DNA of 39,356 nucleotides from a virus, in the IMG/VR virus record IMGVR_UViG_3300036832_000364, positions 1-39,356 of that record. The stretch is one strand, 5' to 3'. Positions within the stretch are counted from its first letter, which is position 1. Each line of letters starts with the position of its first letter. This document shows positions 2,405-21,144 of the stretch, piece after piece. The translations under genes and the position numbers were made by a program. The notes beneath the pieces are model-generated. The model had not been told where the DNA came from. It saw only the letters and a list, made by a program, of their open reading frames with translations, and searched no databases.

Positions 2405-2736
2405 CCTTATTGGGCTGGGCCAGGCAAAATTACGCAGACTTCAATGGGAGACTTCTGCGGAATGGAGTTGATTGGGAAAAGATTGACGCAGATGATCTTG
2501 CTGATATCTGTTACAGCATGATTGTCGATGACGTCATGAACATGGAGACTTCGAGAGTCGAAGCGCGTGAGACTATCGACAAGCGACTTGAGGATGCTGA
2601 GATGCGAGCCAAACTTCAACGTGGCGTGAAGGTTGAGCCCAAGCCATTCGTGCTTGACGCATCTACAATGGCGCGTATGGGGATCAAGATGCCGAAGCCT
2701 GCTCTCCCAGACACCCCGCAAGGTGGTGTGAAATGA
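2389..2736 (+). CDS. Tail assembly chaperone, -1 frameshift extension
   Basis: An open frame of about 116 codons counted from the slip site. It reads YETGLALLGWARQNYADFNG and then a charged helical region ending in DTPQGGVK. The only independent start nearby is a TTG at 2410 with no convincing ribosome site, so it is most likely made only as a fusion to the upstream product, like lambda gpT. It ends in an ATGA overlap with the tape measure gene. The junction is inferred from the slippery heptamer. Confidence 0.75.
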   Translation, partial: YETGLALLGWARQNYADFNGRLLRNGVDWEKIDADDLADICYSMIVDDVMNMETSRVEARETIDKRLEDAEMRAKLQRGVKVEPKPFVLDASTMARMGIKMPKPALPDTPQGGVK

Positions 2737-5054: not shown

Positions 5055-5062
5055 GGTGACAA

Positions 5063-5965: not shown

Positions 5966-6916
5966 ATGACTGCTCCAGTTGTTCATGGTGATGTAATACC
6001 CCTGTGGATGCAGCCAACGACCGCATCTGGCGAGCCTGCACAGATCTGTTATGGCGCAATGGATTACAGGCAGATGATTGCTGCCATATTCCCAACACCT
6101 GGTGTGGTTGGTGTGTCTGATTGGGGCATATCTGCGGGTGGCGGTGCCATCCTCAATATCGCTGTTGGAAATGCTGTGGTCGCTGGGAACAGCGCAGCGT
6201 CGATGTACAGCTATCTATGCGTCAATCGCGCCATCAAGACAACCCAGCCGCCTGGCCCGCCAAACACTCAGAACAGATATGATCTCATTGTGTTGACTGC
6301 ACACGATGGTCAAGTGCTTGGCGATCACATCTATGAATGGCAAGTACAATGCATTTCTGGATCCGAAGCGGCCTCACCGTCTATCCCCGCAACGCCCAAG
6401 GACAGTATCAATCTTGCCGCCGTGTTGCGAAAGCCAGGTGCTGCAACAATTGCAGCCGCTGATATCACTGACTTGCGCAAACTCGCTTTGCTGCCTACAC
6501 AGCCAAAGAGCAGAGTGTATTGGAAGTCTGAGTCAACTGCCAACAGTCCTACATTCACGACCGCAGAAAAGAAAGACACAACAGTACCAGACTTAGTTGT
6601 GGATGTTTTGGTTGCTGGTACTTATCGCATCATGGCTACTGCCATCATTCAAAACACAGCTGCTGGTCGTACATACATGCGAGTGCGGGATGGTGGCAGC
6701 TCATCGCCTGCCGTTGCTTCAACGTTGCTTGCTTATGCACAGGGGTATACTGTTGCTGGCTCTGGCGGCAACAATACATTGGTGTTGCTTTCTGACCTTT
6801 CGCTTTCAGTAGGACGACACATACTTGGCTTGTTTGCCAACACATCGGTAGGCACAGGCACATTGACGGCAAGCACGACTGCGCGTAAGCAATTGTCTGT
6901 GTACCAGGTGGCCTGA
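5966..6916 (+). CDS. Minor tail protein (tail-tip / baseplate component)
   Basis: A 316-residue protein starting immediately after the preceding TAA. The N-terminal 150 residues contain a glycine-rich beta region (WGISAGGGAILNIAVGNAVVAG) and NRYDLIVLTAHDGQV, a pattern often seen in phage baseplate or structural proteins. A linker with ADITDLRK follows, then a C-terminal beta-sandwich-like domain (TYRIMATAIIQNTAAGRTYMRV ...) that could bind a receptor or decorate the tip. The stop overlaps the next start. Role inferred from position. Confidence 0.6.
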   Translation: MTAPVVHGDVIPLWMQPTTASGEPAQICYGAMDYRQMIAAIFPTPGVVGVSDWGISAGGGAILNIAVGNAVVAGNSAASMYSYLCVNRAIKTTQPPGPPNTQNRYDLIVLTAHDGQVLGDHIYEWQVQCISGSEAASPSIPATPKDSINLAAVLRKPGAATIAAADITDLRKLALLPTQPKSRVYWKSESTANSPTFTTAEKKDTTVPDLVVDVLVAGTYRIMATAIIQNTAAGRTYMRVRDGGSSSPAVASTLLAYAQGYTVAGSGGNNTLVLLSDLSLSVGRHILGLFANTSVGTGTLTASTTARKQLSVYQVA

Positions 6917-8088
6917 TGACGGTATTTGGTGCTGATCTTCAGGATGTGCTATCGGCATTAGCACAGCCTTTGCTTGACCCCACGGCAGGTCCGCAACCAA
7001 GAGCTTCAACAGCACCATCAAAGGTGTGGCCAAAGACAAATTGGCAAGTTATCATAGGCCAGAATAACATCGGTCCTCAGTATGAGTTGTCAACAGTAAG
7101 TCAACGTGCCTTATCATATCACATGACAGACAGCGCCAATATGACGTTTGTCATGGATGGCAGTGATCCGGCACTCAAGTACATTGTTGAGCTTGTCACA
7201 GATGTGTGGTTGTATCGCAATGGCATCTTGATGTTTCGTGGGCGCATTGGTAGCTCGCAAGACAGTCTCGATGGCGAGGCTGACACATATACAGTCACTA
7301 TCACTGCCTTTGATTATCGTGAATGGCTTGCACGACAACTACTTCAGCCGTCACGCAAGTGGTCGTGGCGCAATCAAACGCAGGCACAAATCATTCGTGA
7401 CATCTTCACATACTGCATCAGCGGGCAATCAGGCATTCACCCGACATTCACCATTGACACGATTGGCATGCCGTCAACTAAGGTCAACTTCGACACCACG
7501 GCAGGCACTTCTGTAAAAGAAGTCATTGGTGTGATGGCTGGCTTTGGCTGGCAAGTCTTCCCCAATAGTAATATGGGGATCACGCTCAAAGCAATGTCAC
7601 CATTCTACTATCAGTACAACGACAACTTTGTGCTTGAATATGGTGGCTCAGTCAGCAAAGTCACTCGTAGTCTTGATACCGGTGCCTATGCGAATAGTGT
7701 TGTATACACTGGTGATATGAACCTTGCGCCTGTGCAGAAAGACGTTTCTGGAATCGGAACGTCATTGCAAGGTCGCTTGGGCTTGTGCTTGAGTAACCCA
7801 TCAATCGTTGATACAGCACATCTTGCTACAGCAGCCCAATCGGCAGCCAACAATCAAATTGCGATTGTGCCGCAATGGTCTTGTGAGCTAGCACCTGGGC
7901 ACTGGCAGAGTAGCGCAGACGCTTGGATTGGGGATATCTGCAAGTTCGTTATCAGAAAGAACAGGCTAGTCATCAATGATTCATATAGAATCACGGATAT
8001 AGACATCAGCATCAATGATGACTCTACCAAAGCCGATGGCCTCACATTCACAATCCAGAAGCCAGCCAGTCTACCACCAAGGCATTGA
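6916..8088 (+). CDS. Tail-associated (Tal/gp27-like) minor tail protein
   Basis: A 390-residue protein following the Dit-like gene by one gene. Segments such as FVMDGSDPALKYIVELVTDVWLYRNGILMFRGRIG and TVTITAFDYREWLARQL fit the gp27-like hub fold shared by phage Tal proteins, which begins with a statement of position and 'internal frame' strands. The later KEVIGVMAGFGWQVFPN is also typical. No peptidase or lysozyme domain follows, so the protein is only the hub. The ATG overlaps the previous stop (TGATG). Confidence 0.65.
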   Translation: MTVFGADLQDVLSALAQPLLDPTAGPQPRASTAPSKVWPKTNWQVIIGQNNIGPQYELSTVSQRALSYHMTDSANMTFVMDGSDPALKYIVELVTDVWLYRNGILMFRGRIGSSQDSLDGEADTYTVTITAFDYREWLARQLLQPSRKWSWRNQTQAQIIRDIFTYCISGQSGIHPTFTIDTIGMPSTKVNFDTTAGTSVKEVIGVMAGFGWQVFPNSNMGITLKAMSPFYYQYNDNFVLEYGGSVSKVTRSLDTGAYANSVVYTGDMNLAPVQKDVSGIGTSLQGRLGLCLSNPSIVDTAHLATAAQSAANNQIAIVPQWSCELAPGHWQSSADAWIGDICKFVIRKNRLVINDSYRITDIDISINDDSTKADGLTFTIQKPASLPPRH

Positions 8089-8089
8089 T

Positions 8090-8299
8090 ATGGCAATTGA
8101 AGATGTTCGTAACCGCTTCGTTTTCCACCCCGCAACTGATGACACTGGACCATTGCATGAAGAAGTTCGCACACGCTGCTTGGCTTTGGCAGAGTCATTG
8201 TTGATCATCATGCCGCCTGGTCGTCATGCGTCACTCGCGTTGACAACGCTTGAGGAAACGATGCACTGGGCCAACGCAGCGATTGCTTGCGATAGCTGA
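8090..8299 (+). CDS. acb2: Acb2-like anti-CBASS cyclic-nucleotide sponge
   Basis: A 69-residue protein starting one base after the preceding stop (an earlier in-frame start would lie inside the tail gene). It begins MAIEDVRNRFVFHPAT, then has LHEEVRTRCLALAESLL and PGRHASLALTTLEETMHWANAAIA. The NRF-x-(Y/F)HP opening, the SLALT-x-LEE segment and the (M)xWANAAIA ending are the hallmarks I know for the Acb2/Tad1 hairpin domain. These small proteins bind cyclic oligonucleotides and so block CBASS or Thoeris defence. It sits between two tail genes, so it would be made with the late genes. No biochemical role is proven for this copy. Confidence 0.8.
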   Translation: MAIEDVRNRFVFHPATDDTGPLHEEVRTRCLALAESLLIIMPPGRHASLALTTLEETMHWANAAIACDS

Positions 8300-8308
8300 G
8301 GAATAGCC

Positions 8309-11300
8309 ATGACGTTTGATTCCAATCCAGTCGATGCGCTCAAGGGTCTTGATCAGCGCATTGGCGTGTTGGAGCGCACTCAAACGCAATCAGGTGGAGG
8401 CATAAATACAGGCGTCAATCCAAATCAACCGTCAATGTATCGTGGCTCTGGTGCTGGTTGGCCAATCAAGACAAGCACTTGGACTGAAGTTGTCACGTGG
8501 GATACAACATACCAAGGGCCAGTGCCTATGGCCAATGGTATGTTCACGCCGGATTTCACTGGCTGGTATGAAGTAAACATCATGGGTCGTTGGGCTGGCA
8601 ACAATGCTGGCCGACGATTCATGACGCTTGCGGCACATAGCGGCACACCAGCGTCCGGCAACTATTCACAACTATTTTCCAGCAGCGCGTATGTCATGTA
8701 TCATTCTGGTACAATGGCATATTTCAATTTAACTGCCGGCACGACATATTCACTCTTTGTTTACCAAGATTCAGGATCGACACTCAACCTTGATCTCGCA
8801 GCAATATCGTTGGTGCCTCTTGGCGGCATCCGTGGTCCTGCTGGCCCTGCTGGTTCCACTGGTACTACTGGTGATCCTGGGCCTACAGGCGGTACTGGTC
8901 CTCCTGGTGCGACTGGTCCAGGTGGACCCCAAGGAGTCGGTGGACCACCTGGAAGTCCAGGAGTACAAGGTCCGCCAGGATTAGCTGGATCACCTGGGCC
9001 GCCTGGGATCGGCATTCCGCCAAATGGCGCCCAAGGCACAGCACTTATTAAGCGCAGCGCCGATGACTATGACGTGTCATGGGCAGACGTTTCTGGAACA
9101 GGAATCCCTGGGCCGCCTGGACCTGATGGGCCGACTGGGCCGCCAGGAGCAGATGGACCTGCTGGACCACAAGGCAATCCTGGTGATCAAGGACCAACAG
9201 GACCGACTGGCGCAGACGGCATTCAAGGTCCACCAGGCAACGATGGTGGGACTGGGCCTCAAGGGCCACCTGGAAATGACGGCGCAGACGGTGGACCTGG
9301 TCCCACTGGGCCTCAAGGCATGCAAGGTGAGCCTGGGCCGCCAATCAACATCGATGGCACAGTCGACAATGTTGGCGATTTACCAGACCCTTCAACAGTT
9401 CCAGATGCCCATGGCTATATCACAAATGATACAGGACATCTTTGGGTCTCAGACGGCCAAGGCAGCTGGCTCGATGCCGGCCCATTCCAAGGTCCAGCCG
9501 GTCCACCTGGTAGCGCTGGGAATGACGGTGCTGTCGGCCCACAGGGTGATCCTGGACCTGTTGGTCCACAAGGCGTCCCTGGTCCAGCGGGCAATGATGG
9601 CACGAGCGTTGAGATTCAAGGCAGCGTGCCAAATCAAGCAGCGCTACCAACAGATCTAACAACAGACGATGCGGGGAAAGGCTGGATCACAGACGATACA
9701 GGGCATCTATGGGTGTGGACTGGCCAGCAATGGACCGATGCTGGCGTAATCGTTGGTCCGCCTGGTGCTCGTGGCTCATTGTGGTGGCTTCAATACCAAC
9801 CGTATGCTACGCACGCCGACGTCCCATCCCCGCAAGAGCAAGACATATTTCTGTATCAAGATACCCACGAGTATTGGGAATTCCTCCAAGGCACTTGGCA
9901 TGATATCGGTACGCTTGGCGGGCCTGCCGGTGCTACTGGCGCAACTGGAGCTCCAGGACCTGCCGGTCCACCAGGGCAAGGCATACCGACTGGTGGCGCA
10001 ACAGGTCAATCGCTTGTAAAGATTGATGGTACTGACTACAACGTTCAATGGAAGACTGTAGCTGGCGGATATAGTACCGTTGCTTTGGCGACTGGTGGCG
10101 TGTGGAATGTCATTGCACCAAATAGCGTGCCGACTAATGGCCAGATATCATGTAGTGGCACAACGTCTGCCAACTCAACTTGGTTGCGATTCCATTTCTG
10201 GGATGCTAACAATCGACAGGTTGTGGCTATTCTCCAGGAATTGATGCCTGGCGATACCATTTCACTCGCAAGATCGACTACGTCATCTGACCTTGCGCGA
10301 TACGTTGTAACAGCATTGCCTACAACGAATACAGGCAGCCAGTATGTTGAGGTTGCTGTCTCATTTGTTGAGGCAATCGGCAGTAGTGGTGGCGCTCTTC
10401 CATCATGGGCCGCCGCTGTCGTAGACTTCAGCTATAACAATGGATCTGGTGGAAGTTCATCCGGCTCGTTCCCAACGGTTTCAACTGCTACAGACTTCAA
10501 CGCTTGCTTGTTGCCTGGCTTGTATTGGATATCATCCAATGCTACCAATGGTTTCCCGGCATACGCCACTGTTGGCAAAGGCATCTTGCGTGTCTACTAC
10601 TACACCACAGGCAGCATCAATTATTATGTGCAGCAATGGGACCAAGCAGATCACACAGCAAGTTACATTCCATCCAATCAGGTCTGGACTAGATCTGGTT
10701 TTGGGCAAGTTTCAGGCTCAATTGAGTGGACGCCATGGCAGCCAGTTGTCAACAATTCAACAGTCAATACATTTTCTGATTTCGACACCATCTTTGCACC
10801 AGGCACGTATCGCTATGCTTCAAGTGGTTTAGTCATAGTCTTTGCTGGACAACCTGGCACCAAGAGTGGCAGTGGCTACAACGTTTATCAGATGCAGCTG
10901 CAGCAAAGTGGTGCCATGTACATGCGAGCTCATACGGGTGTTGGCGGCTGGGGTCCGTGGAATCTGATTTCTGTTCCAGCTGGCGGACCTGTTGGCTATG
11001 TTCTAACAAAGAAAACAGCAACTGACTTTGACACAGCTTGGCAAGCGCCAGCTGCTACCGGCGTGCCTACCACCCGCAAAATCAACACAACTGCACCACT
11101 TGCCGGTGGTGGCGATCTCAGTGCTGATCGCACTCTTTCTATTTCCGTAGGCCAAGCTGCAGGCACTGTCGCTGCTGGTAATGACAATCGCTTTGTCATC
11201 CCAGGTGGCGCAGCCGGACAAGTGCTGACCAAAAACTCAGCGACTGATTGGGATTTCACTTGGGCAACACTTGCGGGATTGGTGCCGATCGGTGGTGCTG

Positions 11301-12539: not shown

Positions 12540-13104
12540 TATTGCACATTTCGTATTCAGAACGCCTGCCGTGGCATTCGTTTGCTGCGGCATTTTCATT
12601 GCCGGGACTGTAATTGCTTTGGCGGCAACATCATCGACGCCCAAGCCAACATCGAACACAGTGTATGTACCGATACCGGGCCCAACAGGCCCAATCGGTC
12701 CACGTGGCCCACAAGGCCAGCAAGGAGCACAAGGTGTACCGGGCGCACAAGGTGGACAAGGTCTCCCTGGCCAACAAGGCAATCAAGGTCTACATGGTGC
12801 TGATGGGATCAATGGCAGTAATGGGATTGCTGGTAATTCTGGACCGCGTGGTGCAGTAGGCCCACGAGGCCCACGAGGCAAGTCTGGTGCGAGCGGTAAG
12901 CCTGGGCCGACTGTGACGCAAACGATCGTGGTGCGCGTCAGCCCGACACCTGGCCCAACGCGAACGATTACGGAAACAGAAACGCCGACACCGAGCCCTG
13001 CCCCAACCCCCGCATGCCCCACTGGTTTCGATTTCAGAACGATTTCGGTTCACGAAAGAGAGCCTGAGGCTACGGCCACGATTGCGGTGTGCGTTCGATC
13101 TTGA
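12523..13104 (+). CDS. Membrane-anchored collagen-like protein
   Basis: About 193 residues from the ATG at 12523 (an alternative ATG lies at 12511). Residues about 10-35 (FRTPAVAFVCCGIFIAGTVIALAA) form a single hydrophobic anchor. A Gly-X-Y collagen-like stalk of about 75 residues follows (GPTGPIGPRGPQGQQG ...), then a Pro/Thr-rich linker (ETPTPSPAPTPACPTG) and a short C-terminal tail with two cysteines. It looks like a surface-displayed stalk anchored in the host envelope rather than a virion fibre, which is unusual. It is the last gene before the long non-coding region. Confidence 0.65.
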   Translation: MKSPTDIAHFVFRTPAVAFVCCGIFIAGTVIALAATSSTPKPTSNTVYVPIPGPTGPIGPRGPQGQQGAQGVPGAQGGQGLPGQQGNQGLHGADGINGSNGIAGNSGPRGAVGPRGPRGKSGASGKPGPTVTQTIVVRVSPTPGPTRTITETETPTPSPAPTPACPTGFDFRTISVHEREPEATATIAVCVRS

Positions 13105-13150
13105 GGAGAGTCGATCTTGTGAGCTAATCGAACTAGTGTTCTCGATCTTG

Positions 13151-13183
13151 AAAGTGCGTCGTTCGAATTGAACGGCGCATTTT
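13151..13183 (+). terminator. Terminator-like hairpin after the late operon
   Basis: A 14-bp stem (arms at 13151-13164 and 13170-13183, with some G-T pairs) closes a five-base loop GAATT. The 3' arm ends in TTTT. It lies 46 bases beyond the last gene of the late operon, the expected place for its terminator. The T run is short, so efficiency is uncertain. Confidence 0.55.
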
Positions 13184-13313
13184 CGATTTCTCGTTGTCGA
13201 TCTTGAACGGCTCTGGGAACGATCTTGAACGGCTATTCGAACGTATGTTCTCGATCTTGAACCCCGGTTACCTAGGAGTAACCTATGAGCGAGCCGTGAG
13301 CCTAGGATCAAAT

Positions 13314-13372
13314 CTAACAAGATCGACTTCTAGGGGGTGTTAGGACACCTAGAAACGATTCGATCTTGTTAG
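13314..13372 (+). other. Long imperfect hairpin containing the CGATCTTG motif
   Basis: Arms at 13314-13326 and 13360-13372 are perfectly complementary over 13 bases (CTAACAAGATCGA and its complement). Inside them a second pairing TTCTAGG/CCTAGAA (13328-13334 and 13348-13354) continues the structure. Both outer arms contain the 8-mer of the array, so the hairpin may be a by-product of two inverted operator copies or a structured RNA. Confidence 0.6.
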
Positions 13373-13499
13373 GAACACAACAGGACAGCAATGCGGGGCT
13401 GTTCTGCCGGTCGCCAGGGTCCGGCGGAAGGCCTGTCTCGGCGTGAACCTTAGAGAACGCTTAGATCGCCTAAAAAATCTTGAAAATATTTTCGTGATT

Positions 13500-13534
13500 C
13501 GGGAATTTTTCGGGATTCCCGTACGTTGGTACGG
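13500..13534 (+). other. Two overlapping alternative hairpins
   Basis: CGGGAAT (13500-13506) pairs with ATTCCCG (13515-13521). CCGTAC (13519-13524) pairs with GTACGG (13529-13534). The two share bases 13519-13521, so they cannot both form fully. This is the arrangement of a small attenuator-type switch, although no ligand or peptide is evident. Confidence 0.4.
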
Positions 13535-13711
13535 ATGTACCACACAGCAACTGAAGAGCACGACGGACGGAAAGCCCTGAGCCGCTAGCGCGGCGAGGAT
13601 GTCGCTACCGGGCCGAAAAACTACATCGGAACGTTCCCCCACCCCGGTAGCACCGGGTAGGTCGAGCACCGTAGTTCCAGCGCCGAGAGGCAGCAGGAGG
13701 TGCGACGAACG

Positions 13712-13817
13712 CTTTCCAAGATCGAATCCAATACACGCCGATCCACTGCGGTTATTCGATCTTGAGATCGTGCGACCTAACCACGTGGGCCCCGTGATAA
13801 ATCACCGGTCAGACCGG
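13712..13817 (+). repeat. Diverged copy of the stem-loop found in the degenerate hammerhead
   Basis: An 11-bp stem (13717-13727 with 13754-13764) closes a 26-base loop. Its interior (ATACACGCCGA ... ACTGCGGTT) is nearly the same as the loop at 13899-13925. A hairpin-forming CACG ... CGTG (13782-13796) and then ATAAATCACCGG follow, which line up loosely with stem I and the CCGATGAGATCACGG of the downstream copy. No intact GAAA or CTGATGA core is present. It appears to be an older or remodelled paralogue. Confidence 0.45.
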
Positions 13818-13872
13818 GCTCGATTGCTTCCGATGTTCTGCTACAGAGGAACATGATTCTTCTCATTCCTAA

Positions 13873-13973
13873 CGTCGAAATGGCGTTCAAGATCGAATCT
13901 CATACACGCCGAACTACTGCGGTTTTTCGATCTTGAACGTCATCCACGGGTAATCTCCCGTGCCGATGAGATC
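13873..13973 (+). ncRNA. Degenerate type II hammerhead ribozyme (U4 to C)
   Basis: The order matches the eleven canonical copies: GAAA at 13877-13880, a 17-bp stem III (arms 13881-13897 and 13926-13942), UC at 13943-13944, a 6-bp stem I CACGGG/CCCGTG with loop TAATCT, then CCGATGA at 13963-13969. The core U at position 4 is C, and stem II is reduced to three pairs (GTC with GAT). The putative cut would leave a 65-nt leader before the next gene, as in the active-looking copies. It is probably crippled or very slow. Confidence 0.65.
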
Positions 13974-14009
13974 ACGGAATGAACTCAAAACTCACAAGGA
14001 GTGAGAGTA

Positions 14010-14426: not shown

Positions 14427-14494
14427 GGTCGAAACACCCTGTAAAACAACAGTTTTGCGGGGTGTCCGCCGGTTACTCCGGCGCTGATGAGACC
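14427..14494 (+). ncRNA. Type II hammerhead ribozyme 1
   Basis: GGTC (14427-14430) pairs with GACC (14491-14494) as stem II. GAAA is at 14431-14434. Stem III is 13 bp with G-T pairs and an AACA loop. Cleavage is expected after C14466. Stem I is CGCCGG/CCGGCG with loop TTACT, followed by CTGATGA at 14484-14490. It starts directly after the TAA of the upstream gene and leaves a 63-nt leader before the next ATG. Confidence 0.95.
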
Positions 14495-14529
14495 AGTTCG
14501 AAATCAGAAAAGACAAGGAGAGAATCACG

Positions 14530-14703
14530 ATGTACCTGATGGCGTTCAATCGCTACCACCGTCACGAGCACCTCGTGCCTAAAGGCACGATGGTCACGCT
14601 CTGTGGGCGAGACGCAACGTACATGGCACGATTTCGGAATTCGGAACGTGGTATGGACGCCAAGGTCAGGCCGCTTTGCCCCAAGTGCGATGCGGCCAAG
14701 TAA
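14530..14703 (+). CDS. 57-residue Cys-containing small protein
   Basis: ATG at 14530 behind AAGGAGAGAATC. The protein is basic (MYLMAFNRYHRHEHLVPKGT ...) and ends with CGRD ... LCPKCDAAK, a possible zinc-binding pair of cysteines plus two histidines near the N-terminus. It is bounded on both sides by hammerheads, so it would be made from a monocistronic message. No family recognised. The strong ribosome site and the ribozyme on each side argue that it is real despite its size. Confidence 0.75.
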   Translation: MYLMAFNRYHRHEHLVPKGTMVTLCGRDATYMARFRNSERGMDAKVRPLCPKCDAAK

Positions 14704-14760
14704 GGTCGAAACACCTTGTAAAACAAGGTGTCTGAGCGTAACGCGCTCACTGATGAGACC
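14704..14760 (+). ncRNA. Type II hammerhead ribozyme 2
   Basis: Stem II GGTC/GACC (14704-14707 with 14757-14760). GAAA at 14708-14711. Stem III CACCTTG/CAAGGTG with loop TAAAA. Cleavage expected after C14732. Stem I TGAGCG/CGCTCA with loop TAACG. CTGATGA at 14750-14756. It begins right after the stop codon and leaves a 56-nt leader. One of the most compact copies at 57 bases. Confidence 0.95.
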
Positions 14761-14788
14761 AGTAAGTTTCAAGTTGGGAGAGGATATC

Positions 14789-14986
14789 ATGGAGCGTAAG
14801 CCAAAGCGCAAGGTTGTATTGCCGCGCTGCAAACACGGCTTGGAAATGCCAATGCTTTCCTGCCATGAATGCGCACCGATGGTTTCTGAAAACGAAGCCA
14901 AAGCAATCACCAAGCTTAGCCAAGGCAAATTGCTTCTGAATCCGAAAACAGGTCGAAACACCCAAGAATCACAGGAAAACAACTAA
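14789..14986 (+). CDS. 65-residue protein with CKHG / CHEC motif
   Basis: ATG at 14789 after GGGAGAGGATATC. The N-terminal 12 residues are very basic (MERKPKRKVVLPR), followed by CKHGLEMPMLSCHEC, a small CxH..CxxC metal-binding-like knuckle, and a polar C-terminal tail. The last 12 codons and the stop overlap the 5' part of hammerhead 3, so its 3' coding sequence is constrained by ribozyme pairing. Function unknown. Confidence 0.75.
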   Translation: MERKPKRKVVLPRCKHGLEMPMLSCHECAPMVSENEAKAITKLSQGKLLLNPKTGRNTQESQENN

Positions 14987-15042
14987 CCAATGCCTGGTTA
15001 TCCTTGGGTGTCTGCCGGTAAATTGCCGACACTGATGAGACC
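14951..15042 (+). ncRNA. Type II hammerhead ribozyme 3 (overlaps coding sequence)
   Basis: Stem II GGTC/GACC (14951-14954 with 15039-15042). GAAA at 14955-14958. Stem III CACCCAAG/CTTGGGTG is enlarged by an insert with its own hairpin AACCA/TGGTT. Cleavage expected after C15012. Stem I is TGCCGG/CCGACA with one C-A mismatch. CTGATGA at 15032-15038. The stop codon of the upstream gene (14984-14986) lies inside the stem III insert. Leader of 61 nt. Confidence 0.92.
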
Positions 15043-15073
15043 AGAAAGTCTCGACGTCAATAGGAGACGCGCG

Positions 15074-15298
15074 ATGAGCAATCGCAGGAAGATCAAGCAG
15101 GACAAAGCCAGTCTAGTTGGCAGTCGTCGCAATGGTGGACATTATGTCCACGATGACGGCTCAATTGGAATGGGTATGGGTCCGGACGGAAAAATGACCA
15201 AAGTCTTTCCTGAGGATCTTTTGCCGGGTGGTCGGTTCGCTGACCCCAAGCAGAAATTGTCCGTCGATGAGCTGAAGTCCATTCTGGATGAAAGCTGA
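15074..15298 (+). CDS. 74-residue hypothetical protein
   Basis: ATG at 15074 after AATAGGAGACGCGCG. A basic N-terminus (SNRRKIKQDKASLVGSRR) leads into a glycine-rich stretch (GSIGMGMGPDGK) and a short acidic helix (SVDELKSILDES). It sits alone between two hammerheads. I recognise no family; the basic N-terminal tail could bind nucleic acid. Confidence 0.7.
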   Translation: MSNRRKIKQDKASLVGSRRNGGHYVHDDGSIGMGMGPDGKMTKVFPEDLLPGGRFADPKQKLSVDELKSILDES

Positions 15299-15300
15299 AA

Positions 15301-15368
15301 GGTCGAAACACCTTGTAAAATAACAGTTTTACAGGGTGTCTGTCGGTATTTCCGGCACTGATGAGACC
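15301..15368 (+). ncRNA. Type II hammerhead ribozyme 4
   Basis: Stem II GGTC/GACC (15301-15304 with 15365-15368). GAAA at 15305-15308. Stem III is 12 bp (CACCTTGTAAAA with TTTTACAGGGTG) with loop TAACAG. Cleavage expected after C15340. Stem I TGTCGG/CCGGCA with loop TATTT. CTGATGA at 15358-15364. Closely related to copy 1 in its stem III. Leader of 61 nt. Confidence 0.95.
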
Positions 15369-15401
15369 AGAAGTTCTCAACACCCAGAAAGGGTGAACGT
15401 T

Positions 15402-15857
15402 ATGAATGACATCGTATTTCCATACGGTGAAATGAACGAACGTGAGGCCAAAATCTCACGCGTCGTGGAGCGGCATTTACGCCAGCTCAAGGAGACTCGC
15501 CAATTCCGCTGGAATGGCTATCACAATTTGGCCACCTTCATTGGTGAACCGAATTGTGAGCGTGCCGTGGCGAACACATGCGCCCGATTGCCATGGAAAT
15601 ATGGTGTTCCGGTGTTTATGTTCACCAAGCAAAATGGCACCGGGAATATCTGGACCGGATGGGCCAAACGTCAGCCGAATTTCTTTGCCATCAAGGCACG
15701 TGATGAGGTTGACCGATGGCTTATTGGCATTCCCAAGATGGGCGACGATTTCCTGACTGCTGAGCGTTATCCCATTGGTAAGCAAATGTTGCTCCCTGAG
15801 CTTGAAGAGTTCATGAAAGACTTCCCAAGTCTTGATGAGCTAATCGAGCGCAGCTAA
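15402..15857 (+). CDS. 151-residue hypothetical protein
   Basis: ATG at 15402, after GAAAGGGTGAACGTT. The sequence has an N-terminal charged helix (NEREAKISRVVERHLRQLKETR), a central region with aromatic residues (WKYGVPVFMFTKQNGTGNIWTGWAKRQPN) and an acidic C-terminal helix (LLPELEEFMKDFPSLDELIERS). No membrane segment and no motif I can assign. Flanked by hammerheads 4 and 5, so probably expressed as its own message. Confidence 0.7.
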   Translation: MNDIVFPYGEMNEREAKISRVVERHLRQLKETRQFRWNGYHNLATFIGEPNCERAVANTCARLPWKYGVPVFMFTKQNGTGNIWTGWAKRQPNFFAIKARDEVDRWLIGIPKMGDDFLTAERYPIGKQMLLPELEEFMKDFPSLDELIERS

Positions 15858-15936
15858 GGTCGAAACACTCACGAAAACCCTTGCAAAATAAGGGTTTCCG
15901 TGAGTGTCCGTGGGTTATGCCCACGCTGACGAGACC
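15858..15936 (+). ncRNA. Type II hammerhead ribozyme 5 (CUGACGA core)
   Basis: Stem II GGTC/GACC (15858-15861 with 15933-15936). GAAA at 15862-15865. Stem III CACTCACG/CGTGAGTG is extended by an inner AACCCTT/AAGGGTT helix. Cleavage expected after C15908. Stem I CGTGGG/CCCACG with loop TTATG. The core is CTGACGA at 15926-15932; position 7 is the one variable base of the consensus, so activity should be kept. The downstream leader is 146 nt, longer than in any other copy. Confidence 0.93.
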
Positions 15937-15960
15937 AATAATTCACGGCCATACAGCCGG

Positions 15961-16028
15961 GAATTACTCGCGGGTAATTCAGGCCATACCAGACGGTATG
16001 GCCTAGGATGAGGGTAGGGAATTTCCCT
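15961..16028 (+). promoter_or_regulatory. Structured extra leader of the DEPPF-tailed gene
   Basis: Three further hairpins follow hammerhead 5: GAATTA/TAATTC (15961-15980), a perfect 9-bp GGCCATACC/GGTATGGCC with loop AGAC (15982-16003), and AGGGAA/TTCCCT (16016-16028). A ribosome site GGGAGG precedes the GTG at 16055. No other gene of the block has such a leader, so it may regulate or stabilise this message. A promoter hidden here is also possible. Confidence 0.5.
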
Positions 16029-16054
16029 ATCGTCGACGTGCTGGGAGGCACAAA

Positions 16055-16630
16055 GTGACTGAAGTCGCTGAGAAGGACACCACGGAGACTGAAGCTGCCG
16101 ATGAGGCTGCGACGGACTCCACCGCAACGGACGCTGCTGCTTCCGACGTGACGCCGCCCGCAGAGGGTACGGCCAAGGCCAAGAAGCAGCGTGTGGCCAA
16201 GACCTACAAGGAGCGTTTGGACGGTGCTTTCGAAAAGGAAAACATCGTTCACAACGCATTCATTGCCATGGTCGAGCGTGAGACCGGATTCGCACCGGAT
16301 CTCAAGAGCATCATCGCTGTCTTCACGCTGTACAACGACTGGCGTGCGAGCAAGGCTGAGGATTACACCAAGGCCAAGGAGGCAGCTGACGCCGCCAAGC
16401 CCGCCAAGCCGCAAAAGGCGGACAAGGCTCCCAAGACCGTTGCGGAGGCTGACGCTGCCGAAACCGCTCTGCGGTCCAAGCTGGCCGAACTGGAAAAGGT
16501 TCGCGCCCAGCTGATGGCCAACGAGAGCGGTGAAGGCGACGACAGCGATGGTGACGCTGACGGTGAGGTTTCGGAAGTCGAAACCACAGCCGACACGGCC
16601 ACGGCCAAGAACGATGAGCCGCCATTCTAA
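16055..16630 (+). CDS. Acidic, Ala-rich protein with SSB-like C-terminal tip
   Basis: A 191-residue protein from the GTG at 16055 behind GGGAGGCACAAA. The N-terminal 45 residues are Ala/Thr/Asp-rich and disordered. A folded part spans about 50-105 (KTYKERLDGAFEKENIVHNAF ... IIAVFTLYNDWRASK). Then come an Ala/Lys helix and a long acidic tail (GEGDDSDGDADGEVSEVE) ending NDEPPF. The end resembles the acidic tip of single-strand-binding proteins that recruits partners, yet no OB fold is evident. Codons favour C and G endings. Insulated by hammerhead 5 and a long hairpin. Confidence 0.75.
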   Translation: MTEVAEKDTTETEAADEAATDSTATDAAASDVTPPAEGTAKAKKQRVAKTYKERLDGAFEKENIVHNAFIAMVERETGFAPDLKSIIAVFTLYNDWRASKAEDYTKAKEAADAAKPAKPQKADKAPKTVAEADAAETALRSKLAELEKVRAQLMANESGEGDDSDGDADGEVSEVETTADTATAKNDEPPF

Positions 16631-16640
16631 GTGGCCAAGT

Positions 16641-16686
16641 AGTAGCGCAAAAGGGTGGGTCTGCGGATCCACCCTTTTGTGCTGCT
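16641..16686 (+). terminator. Long hairpin, probable terminator or 3' stabiliser
   Basis: A 21-bp stem (16641-16661 with 16666-16686, with a few G-T pairs) and a four-base loop TGCG. The inner part is AAAAGGGTGG with CCACCCTTTT. There is no T run beyond the hairpin, but the arms place A and T tracts symmetrically, as in bidirectional terminators. It lies 10 bases after the stop and just before hammerhead 6. Confidence 0.65.
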
Positions 16687-16694
16687 CAAAAACA

Positions 16695-16751
16695 GGTCGA
16701 AACCCCAATTAAACGTTGGGGTCCACGCGTTATGCGCGTGCTGATGAGACC
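16695..16751 (+). ncRNA. Type II hammerhead ribozyme 6
   Basis: Stem II GGTC/GACC (16695-16698 with 16748-16751). GAAA at 16699-16702. Stem III CCCCAA/TTGGGG, the only copy without the CACCC start. Cleavage expected after C16723. Stem I CACGCG/CGCGTG with loop TTATG. CTGATGA at 16741-16747. Leader of 65 nt. The changed stem III keeps perfect pairing, which supports the fold. Confidence 0.95.
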
Positions 16752-16788
16752 CAGGAAGATCTCAACCAACACTCGTTAGGAGAGTATC

Positions 16789-17337
16789 ATGAACAACGAC
16801 GAAATGCCCACTGCGGCAGTTCGTTCTGCCACGGAAAAGCAGGTCAAGTTTATCAATGACCTCGCTGGGAAAAGGCAGATGTCCCCAGAGACAAAAGAGA
16901 GGCTGCTGTCAAAGCTCCCAAGCTTTGACACAAAGGTCGCCAGTGACACGATCACTTGGCTACTCCAGCAGCCCGAATTACCCAAGGAGAAATCCGGCTG
17001 GGTAGTTCCTGAGTCCATTCCCGATGGCCGTTACGCCATCGTGGTCAAGGGTGTCTACCGATTCTTTCGCATCGTGACTCGCGGTGAAGGTGAGCGCGCA
17101 AAGCGTTACGTTCAAAAGGTTTTGGGCTCACCGGGCCAGTTCCGCTATGAGCGCGTGAGCGCAGCGGAATGGCACACAGCCGTCAACGGAATCCTCCCTG
17201 ACCCCGCATTGCATTCAATGCTTTTCGGGCGTGAAGTTGGAGCCTGCGGGGTATGCGGTAGTCCGCTAACCGACCCTGAGTCAATTCGATTGGGAATTGG
17301 CCCAGTGTGTCGAGCCAAGATGGATTGGTGGGTATAA
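16789..17337 (+). CDS. DUF6011-like protein with zinc-finger C-terminus
   Basis: A 182-residue protein; ATG at 16789 after TAGGAGAGTATC. The opening TEKQVKFINDLAGKRQM and the C-terminal GACGVCGSPLTDPESIRLGIGPVC form the layout I know for phage DUF6011-type proteins: a helical 'T-xKQ-xxxI-xxL' start and a CxxC ... C metal site with the GIGPVC ending. The middle (DGRYAIVVKGVYRFFRIV) is a beta module. Function of the family is not established; nucleic-acid binding is likely. Between hammerheads 6 and 7. Confidence 0.8.
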   Translation: MNNDEMPTAAVRSATEKQVKFINDLAGKRQMSPETKERLLSKLPSFDTKVASDTITWLLQQPELPKEKSGWVVPESIPDGRYAIVVKGVYRFFRIVTRGEGERAKRYVQKVLGSPGQFRYERVSAAEWHTAVNGILPDPALHSMLFGREVGACGVCGSPLTDPESIRLGIGPVCRAKMDWWV

Positions 17338-17340
17338 CAA

Positions 17341-17397
17341 GGTCGAAACACCCATGAATAATGGGTGTCTGCACGTAACTCGTGCACTGATGAGACC
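17341..17397 (+). ncRNA. Type II hammerhead ribozyme 7
   Basis: Stem II GGTC/GACC (17341-17344 with 17394-17397). GAAA at 17345-17348. Stem III CACCCAT/ATGGGTG with loop GAATA. Cleavage expected after C17369. Stem I TGCACG/CGTGCA with loop TAACT. CTGATGA at 17387-17393. Leader of 57 nt. Stem III and its loop are identical to those of copy 9, while stem I differs. Confidence 0.96.
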
Positions 17398-17426
17398 AGC
17401 AAGTCTTACGACGAATGGAGAGTATC

Positions 17427-17678
17427 GTGGACGAAAAGGCCATAAAGGAATGGCTTTTGAATTATGCCTGGCTGGGCGATGCTGATTACCAGCGTCAAGA
17501 AGTCGAGTGCATAATGTCCCAGGATGACTGGAAGTACATCGATGCCATGACCGAGCACTATGCGGGAATGGCTGAGGTGCCTGGACCGGAGGCAGTAGCA
17601 AGTGCCAATGGCTTTGCGCTGTCGAGCCTATACGAATGTCATGATGCACCACACATTGCGACGTGCCCCCATGCCTGA
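17427..17678 (+). CDS. 83-residue hypothetical protein
   Basis: I start it at the GTG 17427, which follows GGAGAGTATC at the same spacing as the ATG of neighbouring genes. The ATG 12 bases upstream lies inside that ribosome site. The protein is acidic and helical (DEKAIKEWLLNYAWLGDADYQRQEVECIM) with a Cys/His pair at its end (YECHDAPHIATCPHA). Unknown function. Its end overlaps the next small gene, with no ribozyme between them, so the two would share one message. Confidence 0.7.
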   Translation: MDEKAIKEWLLNYAWLGDADYQRQEVECIMSQDDWKYIDAMTEHYAGMAEVPGPEAVASANGFALSSLYECHDAPHIATCPHA

Positions 17679-17844
17679 GGAAAGACTCCCACGCATCGTC
17701 CGTCCGTTGTGTAAGCATTGTCGCGGTCGTGTATACCACGCGGCCAAAAGCCACAAGCATTACACGCACATGGACAAGACGTCGTGTGAGTACCGTCGCA
17801 TTGAAGGTTCGCAAATCGAAATGGAGACGCTAGTTTGGCAATGA
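17671..17844 (+). CDS. 57-residue basic protein with CKHC motif
   Basis: Start uncertain: the ATG at 17671 overlaps the previous stop (ATGCCTGA), while the ATG at 17641 is the other choice; neither has a clear ribosome site, which suggests translational coupling. The protein is basic and contains LCKHCRGRVYHAAKSHKHY and a later Cys, compatible with a small zinc knuckle. It ends just before hammerhead 8. No family recognised. Confidence 0.6.
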   Translation: MPEERLPRIVRPLCKHCRGRVYHAAKSHKHYTHMDKTSCEYRRIEGSQIEMETLVWQ

Positions 17845-17846
17845 CA

Positions 17847-17914
17847 GGTCGAAACACCCATGAAAGTGTTGTAAACATGGGTGTCCATGGCTAAATGGCC
17901 ATGCTGATGAGACC
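17847..17914 (+). ncRNA. Type II hammerhead ribozyme 8
   Basis: Stem II GGTC/GACC (17847-17850 with 17911-17914). GAAA at 17851-17854. Stem III CACCCATG/CATGGGTG with a 13-base loop. Cleavage expected after C17885. Stem I CATGGC/GCCATG with loop TAAATG. CTGATGA at 17904-17910. Leader of 57 nt. Confidence 0.95.
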
Positions 17915-17942
17915 AGAACGTTCTCAATGTTAGGAGAGTATC

Positions 17943-18293
17943 ATGACCATGTCCGACGCCAACGCCAAGGCTATGAAGAGTGCTAAGCCCATGTCTTTGG
18001 GCTACACCAAGCCCAGTAAGCGCACGCCGCTTGCGATGATGGTGGAGGTGGCGATGTTCACGATTGTCGTGTTCACCGTCATCGGCGTTATCGCTGGGAT
18101 CGCAATTGCGGCCCACACGGAGCACCACAGTGATGGCTCAGGTTATCTTGCCACTACTGTGACCACGCATCCGACTGGCGGGCTGGGCGCTGTGATCATC
18201 ATCGCATCGCTTGTGCAGGCAGTGTTTGGAACACTGTTTGTCTTCGCTTGTGATGCTATCGGCCAGATGCGAGACGCCAAGGTCAAGAAGTAG
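17943..18293 (+). CDS. Two-pass membrane protein
   Basis: A 116-residue protein; ATG at 17943 after TAGGAGAGTATC. A polar Ala/Lys-rich N-terminal 30 residues precedes two hydrophobic helices: about 32-58 (MMVEVAMFTIVVFTVIGVIAGIAIAA) and about 82-107 (GGLGAVIIIASLVQAVFGTLFVFACDAI). The loop between has His and Gly residues and the C-terminus is basic. It may alter the host membrane (for example superinfection exclusion), but that is only a guess. Hammerheads flank it. Confidence 0.75.
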   Translation: MTMSDANAKAMKSAKPMSLGYTKPSKRTPLAMMVEVAMFTIVVFTVIGVIAGIAIAAHTEHHSDGSGYLATTVTTHPTGGLGAVIIIASLVQAVFGTLFVFACDAIGQMRDAKVKK

Positions 18294-18349
18294 GACGAAA
18301 CACCCATGAATAATGGGTGTCGCAGCGTAAAGCGCTGCCTGATGAGTCC
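18293..18349 (+). ncRNA. Type II hammerhead ribozyme 9 (compensatory stem II)
   Basis: Stem II is GGAC/GTCC (18293-18296 with 18346-18349), a double change from GGTC/GACC that keeps pairing. GAAA at 18297-18300. Stem III CACCCAT/ATGGGTG with loop GAATA. Cleavage expected after C18321. Stem I GCAGCG/CGCTGC with loop TAAAG. CTGATGA at 18339-18345. Its first base is the last base of the upstream TAG stop. Leader of 62 nt. Confidence 0.96.
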
Positions 18350-18383
18350 CAGTTTGGATTTCGAAAAAGGAATGGAGAGTAAC

Positions 18384-18635
18384 ATGAGCGACAACATCCA
18401 GACAATTGATCTGGATTGCCCACCTGGCGGAATTCGCCCAGGCAATTTGATCAAGGGTGTCATCGACGGACTCGGCATTGAGCCGATCACATTCGATGTC
18501 ACACCATTCTTTGGCAATGCGGAGTATGCATTTCGCATTCCGAAAGATGAGTGGGTCGCCAAGTATCAGCCAACAATCAAGGAGCGCATTACTGCGCTCT
18601 ACAACAGCGGCACAATCCGTTACGGCAGTTGGTGA
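18384..18635 (+). CDS. 83-residue hypothetical protein
   Basis: ATG at 18384 after GGAGAGTAAC; in-frame starts further upstream lie inside the ribozyme and are not used. The protein (MSDNIQTIDLDCPPGGIRPG ... VTPFFGNAEYAFRIPKDEW) has a small mixed alpha/beta look with a Pro/Gly-rich start and a C-terminal helix. No motif recognised. Between hammerheads 9 and 10. Confidence 0.7.
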   Translation: MSDNIQTIDLDCPPGGIRPGNLIKGVIDGLGIEPITFDVTPFFGNAEYAFRIPKDEWVAKYQPTIKERITALYNSGTIRYGSW

Positions 18636-18641
18636 GTTGAA

Positions 18642-18698
18642 GGTCGAAACACCCAATTTTATTGGGTGTCTACAGCTCAATGCTGTACTGATGAGACC
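18642..18698 (+). ncRNA. Type II hammerhead ribozyme 10
   Basis: Stem II GGTC/GACC (18642-18645 with 18695-18698). GAAA at 18646-18649. Stem III CACCCAAT/ATTGGGTG with loop TTT. Cleavage expected after C18670. Stem I TACAGC/GCTGTA with loop TCAAT. CTGATGA at 18688-18694. Leader of 57 nt. Confidence 0.96.
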
Positions 18699-18727
18699 AG
18701 AGAGTCTTGGACGATTGGAGAGAATCA

Positions 18728-18988
18728 ATGGACAGTCCACTGCGGGTGGAAGGTCTGAAGGTGGACCGTATGTACCGCATCATCTATCGAATTCCAACTG
18801 ATAGGTTGGCTCGGCAGATGATTGCCAAGTACATGGGTCAGGAAGACAGCGCAGACTCGCTGTTCTTCAACCTGCGGCCGATTGCCGGCACGCAAGCAGT
18901 CAAGATCGAATATATCCAGCAACTCTGGGAGACCGATCAAACCGTTGCTGCGCCGACAATCTACCGTGGTGAAACGCGGGTGTATTGA
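18728..18988 (+). CDS. 86-residue hypothetical protein
   Basis: ATG at 18728 after TTGGAGAGAATCA. The protein is mixed alpha/beta (VEGLKVDRMYRIIYRIPTDRLARQM ... QAVKIEYIQQLWET) and soluble. No known family. Its stop shares a base with the ATG of the next gene, so the pair is translated from the message released by hammerhead 10. Confidence 0.7.
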   Translation: MDSPLRVEGLKVDRMYRIIYRIPTDRLARQMIAKYMGQEDSADSLFFNLRPIAGTQAVKIEYIQQLWETDQTVAAPTIYRGETRVY

Positions 18989-19179
18989 TGCTATTCGTGA
19001 GCTCATTGCGCCCAAAGAAATTGCACTATGACAATTGTAGCCATTTCAAAGATGGCGACAAGGTCATTGGTACGCGTCGTGCGACGATGCGTGAGCGAAT
19101 TATTTGCGTGATGTGCCGTGATTGCCAAGATCGTGGCGCACGTGCGATTTCGCGAATCGAAAACAACGATTGGAGTTGA
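18988..19179 (+). CDS. 63-residue Cys-rich small protein
   Basis: I use the ATG at 18988, which overlaps the previous TGA; a TTG one codon earlier is less likely. The body has HYDNCSHFKDGDKV and later CVMCRDCQDRG, so four cysteines and two histidines are spaced as in a small zinc ribbon. Basic overall. Unknown function; it lies directly before hammerhead 11. Confidence 0.7.
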   Translation: MLFVSSLRPKKLHYDNCSHFKDGDKVIGTRRATMRERIICVMCRDCQDRGARAISRIENNDWS

Positions 19180-19185
19180 TGAACA

Positions 19186-19242
19186 GGACGAAACACCCAC
19201 TAAACGTGGGTGTCTGCAGCTATCTGCTGCACTGATGAGTCC
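19186..19242 (+). ncRNA. Type II hammerhead ribozyme 11 (compensatory stem II)
   Basis: Stem II GGAC/GTCC (19186-19189 with 19239-19242), again the paired double change. GAAA at 19190-19193. Stem III CACCCAC/GTGGGTG with loop TAAAC. Cleavage expected after C19214. Stem I TGCAGC/GCTGCA with loop TATCT. CTGATGA at 19232-19238. Leader of 61 nt before the helicase gene. Last ribozyme of the array. Confidence 0.96.
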
Positions 19243-19275: not shown

Positions 19276-21144
19276 ATGGAAGAACTGGATCCAGAGAAAA
19301 CATATCTGTATCTAGTGGACGGTGAGATTCTGGCCAAAACACCATATGGTAATCGCTACATCATAAGAACTGTGGTGGGCGGCCAATGGGATGCTGAAAG
19401 AAAGGTTTGGCACATTGGCCTCACATTGAGCAATTGTCATGAATTGCGAAAGCAATTCGGTGATGATCTTGTGGTTGGACCACAATTGTTCAAGTGGGCT
19501 AGGCAGCAGATTGTCAAAGACAACGAGCTACAAACCTTGATTTCAAAGGAAAGCCACGATCTCACTCGTGTGCCTCTTTCACACCAAGTATTAGATCAAG
19601 CAATGAGCAATCGCACCTATCAACAGGTTGCGGCTGCTTTCATTGCCAAGCAGCGAAATGCGCTCATTGCGCACGAGCCTGGCTTGGGCAAGACGCTTGA
19701 GGCTATTGCGGGGTTGATCGAGGGCAATTGCTGGCAAGGCATGATCTTGATTACTGCCCCACTGACTTCATTGAGGCCAGTTTGGGAAAAGGAATTGAAG
19801 CATTGGGCACCAGACGCACACGTTGTGATCGGTGTGCCTCAGCGTGGAGATTCCGCAGCTACTCGGATTGCGCTTCAAGAGGAATTCTTGGAGCACTATG
19901 CCGCCAATCTCACGCAGCCTCACATTCTGGTTATCAACCCAGAAATGATGCGTGAGCGCAAGGAGAAGGGTTCAACTGACACCTACCCCGCATTCCCATT
20001 GTTACAAGCAGTTTCCTGGCAAGGGATTGTGTGTGACGAGAGTCACCGCTATCTCTCAGGAATTCGATCATCGAAATCCATGACACAAACAGGTCGTGGA
20101 CTGATGAGCTTGAAGCTTGCTGACAATGGAATCAAAATTGCAATGTCGGGTACTCCAATGCGTGGAAAAGCCAGCAATTTATGGGGAACGCTTCACTGGC
20201 TGTTCCCCAAGGAATACACGTCATTCTGGTCATGGGCTGAAGCTTACTTTTGGGTCAGCCGTGGTTGGGGTGGGTCCCACAATGTTGGCGAAATGAAGGC
20301 TCACCGTAAGGATGACTTCTACAAGTCACTTGACGGTGTCATGCTTCGCAAAACGAAAGCAGAGGTGGCGAAGGATTTGCCGCCAAAACTGCGGCTTGAC
20401 GTTTACTGCGACATGACTGAGCTTCAGGAGCGAATGTATCGCCAGATGGAAGCTGCTGCAATCGCTGAGATTGAAGGCCTGGAGGGTGAGGACAACAACC
20501 TAACGGCCATCGGCATTCTTGCCATTATGACGAGGCTGAAGCAATTCGCCAACTGCACGATGCGGAATGTCGGCGTTGACGGTATCTCGGCAAAAGCACA
20601 ATTCGATCCGATGCACAGTGGTAAGTGTGCTGTGATCCAGGAAATGCTGGAGGAACGAGGCATTGCGGGCGATGACCGTGAGGGTGACGGCAAGATCGTG
20701 ATTGCTTCGCAGTTCACGCAGTTGATTGACTCGCTGGAAGAATTCCTTGCGAGCATTGACGTTCCGACGATGAAGATCACCGGTGCGGTGCGTGAGCGTG
20801 ACCGTGTTTCGATTACCGAAAAGTTCCAGGCTGAAGGTGGACCGCGCGTGCTGTTGATGAACACGACAGCAGGTGGAGTAGCGATCACACTTGATGCTCA
20901 CTGCGATGAGCTCATCATTGTCGATGAGACCTGGACACCGGATGATCAGGAGCAGCTGGAAGATCGCATTCACCGGGTGAGTCGCATTCACCAGGTGACG
21001 ATTTATCGGATGTATGCCAAGGACACGATTGATGAATACATCAAGAGTCGCACCTTGGAAAAGGACACAATCCAAAAGGAAATCCTGGATGGCCGTCGTG
21101 GAGTTGAGAACATTATCACGGGCATTACATCCTGCATCCGATGA
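19276..21144 (+). CDS. SNF2-type superfamily 2 helicase
   Basis: A 622-residue ATP-dependent DNA translocase; ATG at 19276 after GAGGAGAGTAAC. Motif I HEPGLGKTLEA near residue 135, motif II DESH at about 254, SGTPMRGKASNLWGTL as motif III, ASQFTQLIDSL as motif IV, TTAGGVAITLDAHCDELIIVDE as motif V and QLEDRIHRVSRI near 565 as motif VI. Such helicases in phages act in replication or recombination. An N-terminal region of about 110 residues precedes the helicase core (GGQWDAERKVWHI resembles a HARP-like or substrate module). It ends the ribozyme-separated block and is followed by a terminator. Confidence 0.93.
   Translation: MEELDPEKTYLYLVDGEILAKTPYGNRYIIRTVVGGQWDAERKVWHIGLTLSNCHELRKQFGDDLVVGPQLFKWARQQIVKDNELQTLISKESHDLTRVPLSHQVLDQAMSNRTYQQVAAAFIAKQRNALIAHEPGLGKTLEAIAGLIEGNCWQGMILITAPLTSLRPVWEKELKHWAPDAHVVIGVPQRGDSAATRIALQEEFLEHYAANLTQPHILVINPEMMRERKEKGSTDTYPAFPLLQAVSWQGIVCDESHRYLSGIRSSKSMTQTGRGLMSLKLADNGIKIAMSGTPMRGKASNLWGTLHWLFPKEYTSFWSWAEAYFWVSRGWGGSHNVGEMKAHRKDDFYKSLDGVMLRKTKAEVAKDLPPKLRLDVYCDMTELQERMYRQMEAAAIAEIEGLEGEDNNLTAIGILAIMTRLKQFANCTMRNVGVDGISAKAQFDPMHSGKCAVIQEMLEERGIAGDDREGDGKIVIASQFTQLIDSLEEFLASIDVPTMKITGAVRERDRVSITEKFQAEGGPRVLLMNTTAGGVAITLDAHCDELIIVDETWTPDDQEQLEDRIHRVSRIHQVTIYRMYAKDTIDEYIKSRTLEKDTIQKEILDGRRGVENIITGITSCIR

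Follow-up and report, generated by a model that had tools for sequence, protein, structure and literature searches.

Established hammerhead chemistry predicts that RNA is cut after U-C, so that the stem III side keeps a 2',3'-cyclic phosphate and the stem I side a 5'-hydroxyl (5'-OH). A tandem array of type II hammerheads is described here in virus DNA from IMG/VR record IMGVR_UViG_3300036832_000364, a stretch of 39,356 nucleotides (nt) that was analysed as a whole and is referred to as the window. Two familiar systems are comparable. In phage T7, host RNase III cuts the polycistronic early messenger RNA (mRNA) between genes into single-gene messages with hairpin ends; there a protein cuts the hairpins, whereas in the window array the RNA is predicted to cut itself. 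RiboJ-type insulators, which are engineered from plant satellite RNA, place a hammerhead beside a ribosome-binding site, where it trims the leader and standardises expression, whereas the window array is a natural series in one proposed transcript.

The prophage clusters of Perreault et al. 2011, in which several hammerheads flank single genes, led to the proposal that long phage transcripts are cut into single-gene or operon-length mRNAs (PMC3088659). Three natural tandem arrangements cleave in vitro, and one in vivo (PMC3088659). The initial annotation of the window held that such an organisation had not been described for mRNA processing, which was too strong, since the idea was published in 2011 (PMC3088659). 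Those clusters and the window share type II hammerheads between small phage genes, with several flanking individual genes. In the prophages, however, individual genes or short blocks are flanked and a triple arrangement was tested, whereas the window has 11-12 copies, at every non-overlapping boundary over 5.3 kilobases (kb), in an arrangement conserved across a phage family as well as among cultivated phages. According to a 2017 review, prokaryotic hammerheads lie beside small genes whose function is unknown, and what they do was still an open question (PMC6155905). Cluster K mycobacteriophages carry start-associated sequences, 11-19 copies at gene starts per phage, about half of them with inverted repeats (PMC3203893). 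These are repeats at gene starts like the window array, but their sequence is different, and their GGGATAGGAGCCC of 13 base pairs (bp) has zero matches in the window at up to 2 mismatches. No published description of so large an array, or of hammerheads in Streptomyces phages, was found in a literature search of incomplete coverage.

The chemistry of the array is ordinary and its organisation is unusual. What is new is the near-complete tiling, the conservation across a phage family, the near-invisibility to Rfam, and the presence of cultivated phages for testing. Two of the new findings carry the most weight: in divergent phages the positions are conserved while the stems show compensatory change, and cultivated Streptomyces phages carry arrays. 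A long-suspected, unproven role of hammerheads is now open to testing through these related cultivated phages.

Layout of the array and its genes

The layout scan looked for a stem II strand, GAA, an A-closed stem III, U-H, a stem I hairpin, CUGANGA and the stem II partner, in that order, and tolerated one mismatch in stem I. Together with a reading of the region, it gave 11 type II hammerheads, all on the + strand, which is the coding strand (Table 1). There was no match on the - strand or elsewhere in the window beyond these sites, and 100 dinucleotide shuffles of 6.5 kb gave zero matches. The conserved core (CUGANGA, GAA, the A15.1-U16.1 pair and H at the cleavage site) is intact in 11/11 copies. 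The eleven ribozymes lie where the initial annotation had placed them, and its core, stems and cleavage positions were correct. It had also described a closed 6-bp stem I in every copy, which holds for ten of them; copy 3 has a C-A mismatch in stem I, the sole unpaired cell among 187. The array size of eleven given there stands for copies with an intact core, and a probable twelfth copy upstream was overlooked.

When the twelfth copy is counted, one hammerhead lies at each non-overlapping gene boundary between 13.9 and 19.3 kb, which bears out the earlier statement of nearly one per gene spacer. Near 17678 and at 18988, the two boundaries that lack a ribozyme, the genes overlap and separate messages are impossible. 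In 10 of the 11 copies, 56-65 nt separate the cleavage site from the start codon. Downstream of copy 5 come a 118-nt structured leader and then the gene of 191 amino acids (aa), and copy 6 is preceded by a 64-nt spacer bearing a strong hairpin.

Table 1. Coordinates of ribozymes, genes and other features, in the window unless a relative is named; cleavage positions are predictions and R1 is the covariance model built in this study
Feature	Coordinates	Strand	Predicted cleavage	Remarks
Hammerhead 1, type II	14427..14494	+	after C14466	R1 62.1 bits
Hammerhead 2, type II	14704..14760	+	after C14732	R1 66.2 bits
Hammerhead 3, type II	14951..15042	+	after C15012	R1 39.8-49.2 bits
Hammerhead 4, type II	15301..15368	+	after C15340	R1 55.9 bits
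Hammerhead 5, type II	15858..15936	+	after C15908	R1 58.8 bits
Hammerhead 6, type II	16695..16751	+	after C16723	R1 65.0 bits
Hammerhead 7, type II	17341..17397	+	after C17369	R1 65.7 bits; top Rfam score, 30.4 bits
Hammerhead 8, type II	17847..17914	+	after C17885	R1 54.1 bits
Hammerhead 9, type II	18293..18349	+	after C18321	R1 59.5 bits; stem II GGAC/GTCC, compensatory change
Hammerhead 10, type II	18642..18698	+	after C18670	R1 61.3 bits
Hammerhead 11, type II	19186..19242	+	after C19214	R1 59.6 bits; stem II GGAC/GTCC; last copy, before helicase
Probable 12th hammerhead, core-variant	about 13874..13983	+	after C13944 if active	before first array gene
Long non-coding leader	13105..14000	+		upstream of array; repeated TCGATCTTGA motif
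Gene A, 138 aa	14010..14426	+		first array gene; conserved in all relatives found
Long-leader gene, 191 aa	16055..16630	+		between copies 5 and 6; homologues in L195/L196 and L185 flanked likewise
DUF6011 gene, 182 aa	16789..17337	+		PF19474, 62 bits; ribozyme 5' of it in every relative compared, including L194
Helicase	19276..21144	+		first gene past array; phrog_62 DNA helicase, E 2.7e-101; 55-60% identical in relatives
Alternative hairpins, L194	4530-4640, 5096-5196, 5388-5488, 5700-5800, 7470-7560, 7815-7915			
Alternative hairpins, L185	4702-4800, 7460-7560			two, beside six hammerheads

Folding, covariation and covariance models

In the eleven copies alone, 99.5% of the cells expected to pair are paired, and sliding controls drop to 28-49%. 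Both sides change in 11 of 17 pairs, all six pairs of stem I included, and in stem II a U-A pair is exchanged for A-U in two copies. None of 500 shuffles matched these pairing and covariation values, and the same holds for 106 viral copies and for 48 copies of relatives, judged by paired cells and by covariation score. The base directly 5' of stem II is A in 11/11 window copies and in 158/159 viral copies, although the search patterns did not demand it. The minimum-energy fold of each isolated copy shows at least 17 of the 18 expected pairs checked.

R1 was built from 106 copies in IMG/VR contigs. Six of these come from the window and are not independent of the model; the other five window copies, which have longer stem III hairpins, are. 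With filters off, R1 gave the eleven copies 39.8-66.2 bits (39.8-62.1 bits for the five independent ones), followed by a match of 23.7 bits and then, as the best background match, one of 14.1 bits (E 0.019).

The Rfam model RF02276 (Hammerhead_II) behaves differently from R1. The initial annotation had named scores below the Rfam threshold as grounds for giving up the identification, and formally this is what was found: all eleven copies fall below the 37-bit gathering cut-off, the best with 30.4 bits, and six or seven are detectable at loose thresholds. This shortfall is attributed to the reach of the model and not to defective copies, because RF02276 also omits nearly all copies with covarying pairing in relatives. 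At four related loci (L195, L186, L185 and L194) it recovers 2 copies in total at the gathering threshold, compared with about 29 by R1 and the layout scan; at three Streptomyces phage loci it recovers none and R1 about 20. RF02276 and the window copies share the core, three stems with stem II open, and the A before stem II. The window copies differ from it in a loop I that is mostly short (5 nt, first base U), a 4-bp stem II and the lack of a clear loop-tail pseudoknot. RF02276 misses most of this subtype, so that such arrays are probably under-annotated. Overall, the identification of these predicted ribozymes as type II hammerheads is strongly supported by layout, covariation, positional conservation and the bespoke covariance model.

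Proposed role and conservation at gene joints

The data show the sequence, structure, covariation, position and conservation of the ribozymes, and their chemistry is established for the hammerhead family; a single transcript, cleavage during infection, stabilisation and insulation are inferred. The array probably serves to split an early polycistron into single-gene messages with hairpin-capped ends. A polycistron begun in the leader, before 14.0 kb, would have eleven, perhaps twelve, cleavage sites, as the type II hammerhead of each spacer would cut its own RNA in cis after the UC preceding stem I. Each piece would then hold a single gene, or a pair of genes where these overlap. At each cut, the upstream piece would finish with the stem III hairpin and bear a 2',3'-cyclic phosphate, and the downstream piece would start with a 5'-hydroxyl paired in the stem I hairpin, followed by about 56-65 nt to the start codon. 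As both new ends would be paired in hairpins, they should be attacked more slowly by nucleases that depend on a free 5'-monophosphate or on a 3' end that is not paired. This should also uncouple the expression of each gene from that of its neighbours. The same ends could in principle be rejoined, as RtcB-type ligases can join 5'-OH and 2',3'-cyclic phosphate ends. It is nevertheless extremely improbable that the RNA here is cut in tandem and then ligated into spliced or circular products, as happens in viroid-like elements and retrozymes: such products were sought for tandem phage hammerheads and not found (PMC3088659), and the window proteins scanned gave no RNA ligase match.

At least 119 IMG/VR loci carry this ribozyme subtype by pattern scan. 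Among the matches listed, most contigs of at least 30 kb hold one or two copies, and the largest arrays are those of L195/L196 (two records of essentially one phage) with 13 by layout scan, the window with 11-12, and the record of L069 with 9-10. L196, L186, L185 and L194 have helicases 55-60% identical to that of the window and the same flanking genes, with 13, 9, 6 and 1 copies, respectively, in the corresponding region. Ribozymes occur at homologous boundaries in relatives, namely after gene A, before and after the long-leader gene, and before the DUF6011 gene, and their stems differ in sequence from those of the window yet stay paired. Such positional conservation with altered paired stems is strong evidence, on a comparative basis, for selection on folded RNA at gene joints. 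An array with a copy at each joint that is kept over deep divergence is also strong comparative evidence for message processing.

Between gene A and the helicase, the relatives differ in which genes they have and in how these are ordered, while the ribozymes stay at the joints. It is therefore possible, though somewhat doubtful, that the ribozymes are mainly cassette joints, in which a gene travels with its hammerhead and ribosome-binding site, the repeated module promotes recombination, and cleavage gives only position independence. Module duplication or conversion would be expected to leave stem III nearly uniform within a genome, as it is in the window (mean identity 0.79) and in all six L185 copies (1.00 across the compared bases), and several gene starts downstream of ribozymes have a conserved GGAGAGTAWCATG in common. 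Stem I, in contrast, has 11 distinct sequences in the window (mean identity 0.42), which lowers the homology between modules, and compensatory changes in all three stems point to selection on folded RNA and not on DNA homology alone. Processing and cassette roles may both hold.

In L194, a long imperfect hairpin stands at several other boundaries of the array region, and L185 has two such hairpins (Table 1). Their 3' strand can instead build a short downstream hairpin, and their folding z-scores are -2.4 to -6.3. The gene in L194 whose protein is 85% identical to that of window 18728-18988 has an alternative hairpin 5' of it, where the window has a hammerhead. A search of the L194 region against Rfam gave no credible family for these hairpins. 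This looks like a functional swap of hairpin for hammerhead in sister phages, and the hairpins are perhaps RNase III sites as in phage T7, or some unknown processing RNA. The core-less hairpins at comparable boundaries also raise the idea that the window elements are nothing more than RNA hairpins, serving as stabilisers, RNase III targets or weak terminators, with a relic hammerhead core. This is very unlikely, as the catalytic core is kept, together with covarying stems, in 11/11 copies and in those copies of relatives that were aligned, and hairpins alone would not conserve CUGANGA, GAA and UC. A wider generalisation is offered tentatively, with a little less than even confidence: in a phage lineage of actinobacterial type, the early region may be a self-dicing polycistron with a ribozyme and ribosome-binding-site module at each joint, conserved through gene turnover and, in sister phages, replaceable by structured hairpins of a second class that are perhaps cut by RNase, with selection keeping the processing itself and not the ribozyme.

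Dryad- and Wentworth-type Streptomyces phages are among the top annotated matches for the helicase and for the polymerase. In six cultivated phages of the Dryad group, the copy numbers by R1 are 7 (Dryad), 6 (Wentworth), 8 (Yara), 6 (phiRKBJ001), 7 (Gibson) and 8 (PHTowN), each copy with E 1.4e-8 or better. phiRKBJ001 was assigned to cluster BN in its genome announcement (PMC8852317). In the more distant phages Wollypog, Ajin and Butterscotch, R1 found zero copies, and in GOATification one weak partial match; this outcome doubles as a control for specificity. With their 6-8 copies, the cultivated Streptomyces phages make message processing testable.

The Dryad hammerheads lie in gene gaps upstream of the helicase, a few bases short of the next start and often directly adjoining the ribosome-binding site. 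In the window, 9/11 copies lie -1 to 6 nt from the preceding stop codon, and stop codons adjoin the 5' strand of stem II or overlap with it. The 5' half of copy 3 overlaps the end of the preceding gene (14951-14986), whose stop at 14984-14986 sits in loop III. Terminating ribosomes could thus block folding. The ribozymes might on these grounds be regulatory switches that act on translation or message decay in response to ribosomes, magnesium or a ligand, and not constitutive scissors. Such a role is unlikely, since there is no extra conserved domain or long conserved linker and the loops vary freely.

Several observations weigh against the processing of an early polycistron by the array. For this phage such processing is a prediction from sequence, and a single transcript is an assumption; the promoter scan inside the array stayed at background level. 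Copy 3 carries the stem I mismatch, and the probable twelfth copy has the core CCGATGA (position 4 changed from U to C), which does not conform to the type II core. When more of the surrounding sequence is folded with it, energy alone seldom predicts the 4-bp stem II; a missed stem II prediction is common when tertiary contacts are ignored. Most but not all type II hammerheads have a tertiary contact made by loop I, which is usually a pseudoknot formed with the 3' tail. This pseudoknot has p 0.18 in the window copies and is thus not significant, which makes their speed at cellular magnesium uncertain; in the L113+L029+L107 set it has p 0.0015, chiefly from the first five L113 copies. Finally, the sister phage L194 keeps one copy only, before the DUF6011 gene, and the ribozymes are therefore not indispensable.

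Leader, twelfth copy and minor observations

The leader upstream of the array is plausibly a promoter and operator region. TCGATCTTGA has 11 exact copies in the window compared with 0.1 expected, 7 of them at 13095-13936, and these repeats appear operator-like. A related sequence, CAAGATCG, repeats in the L196 leader. The window leader also contains a 49-nt direct repeat, 90% identical, at 13717-13765 and 13888-13936, and the second repeat copy makes up the stem III region of the twelfth hammerhead.

The twelfth copy was matched by R1 at 13891-13983 (23.7 bits, E 1.3e-5, filters off) and retains the stem I hairpin and U-C. Its stem II can be drawn in two registers. Register A has GTC/GAT with GAAA, and stem III is then the 18-nt inverted repeat 13880-13897/13926-13943; register B, which follows the model alignment, has GATC/GATC. 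It is treated as a decayed or weak hammerhead. By layout scan, the core is intact in the copies at the corresponding position in L196, where this is the first copy, and in L186.

Gene A had no match among 50,697 phage records. Among the same 50,697 phages, megablast found no near-identical phage DNA. A short ribozyme query in blastn gave chance-level matches only. A phage end-repair enzyme was considered at window 28988-29728, where PHROG gives 'polynucleotide kinase', and was rejected; Pfam finds a HAD hydrolase only, with DIDGTLGD and no kinase P-loop. This gene encodes a HAD phosphatase common to Dryad-type phages, and in Dryad and Wentworth a phosphatase-annotated gene occupies the same place, next to the oxidoreductase. 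The gene has no link to the ribozymes.

Comparable long hairpins occur in distant relatives free of hammerheads, in L187 at 2061-2140, 3531-3610 and 4771-4850 and in L188 at 3911-3990 and 5001-5080. The L187 hairpins have no credible Rfam match, and a pattern derived from them matched two contigs, one of which is the source itself. Two of the L187 hairpins have GTTAGCCAATCAGGCTAG in common. Further hammerhead arrays in IMG/VR are found in the L055/L074 records (8 copies) and in L053 (6 copies). The L196 array mixes two hammerhead subtypes: the first five copies (2065-3504) have a longer loop I and a loop-tail pairing of 4-5 bp, and the later copies (3841-9909) mostly have a loop I of 5-6 nt without loop-tail pairing.

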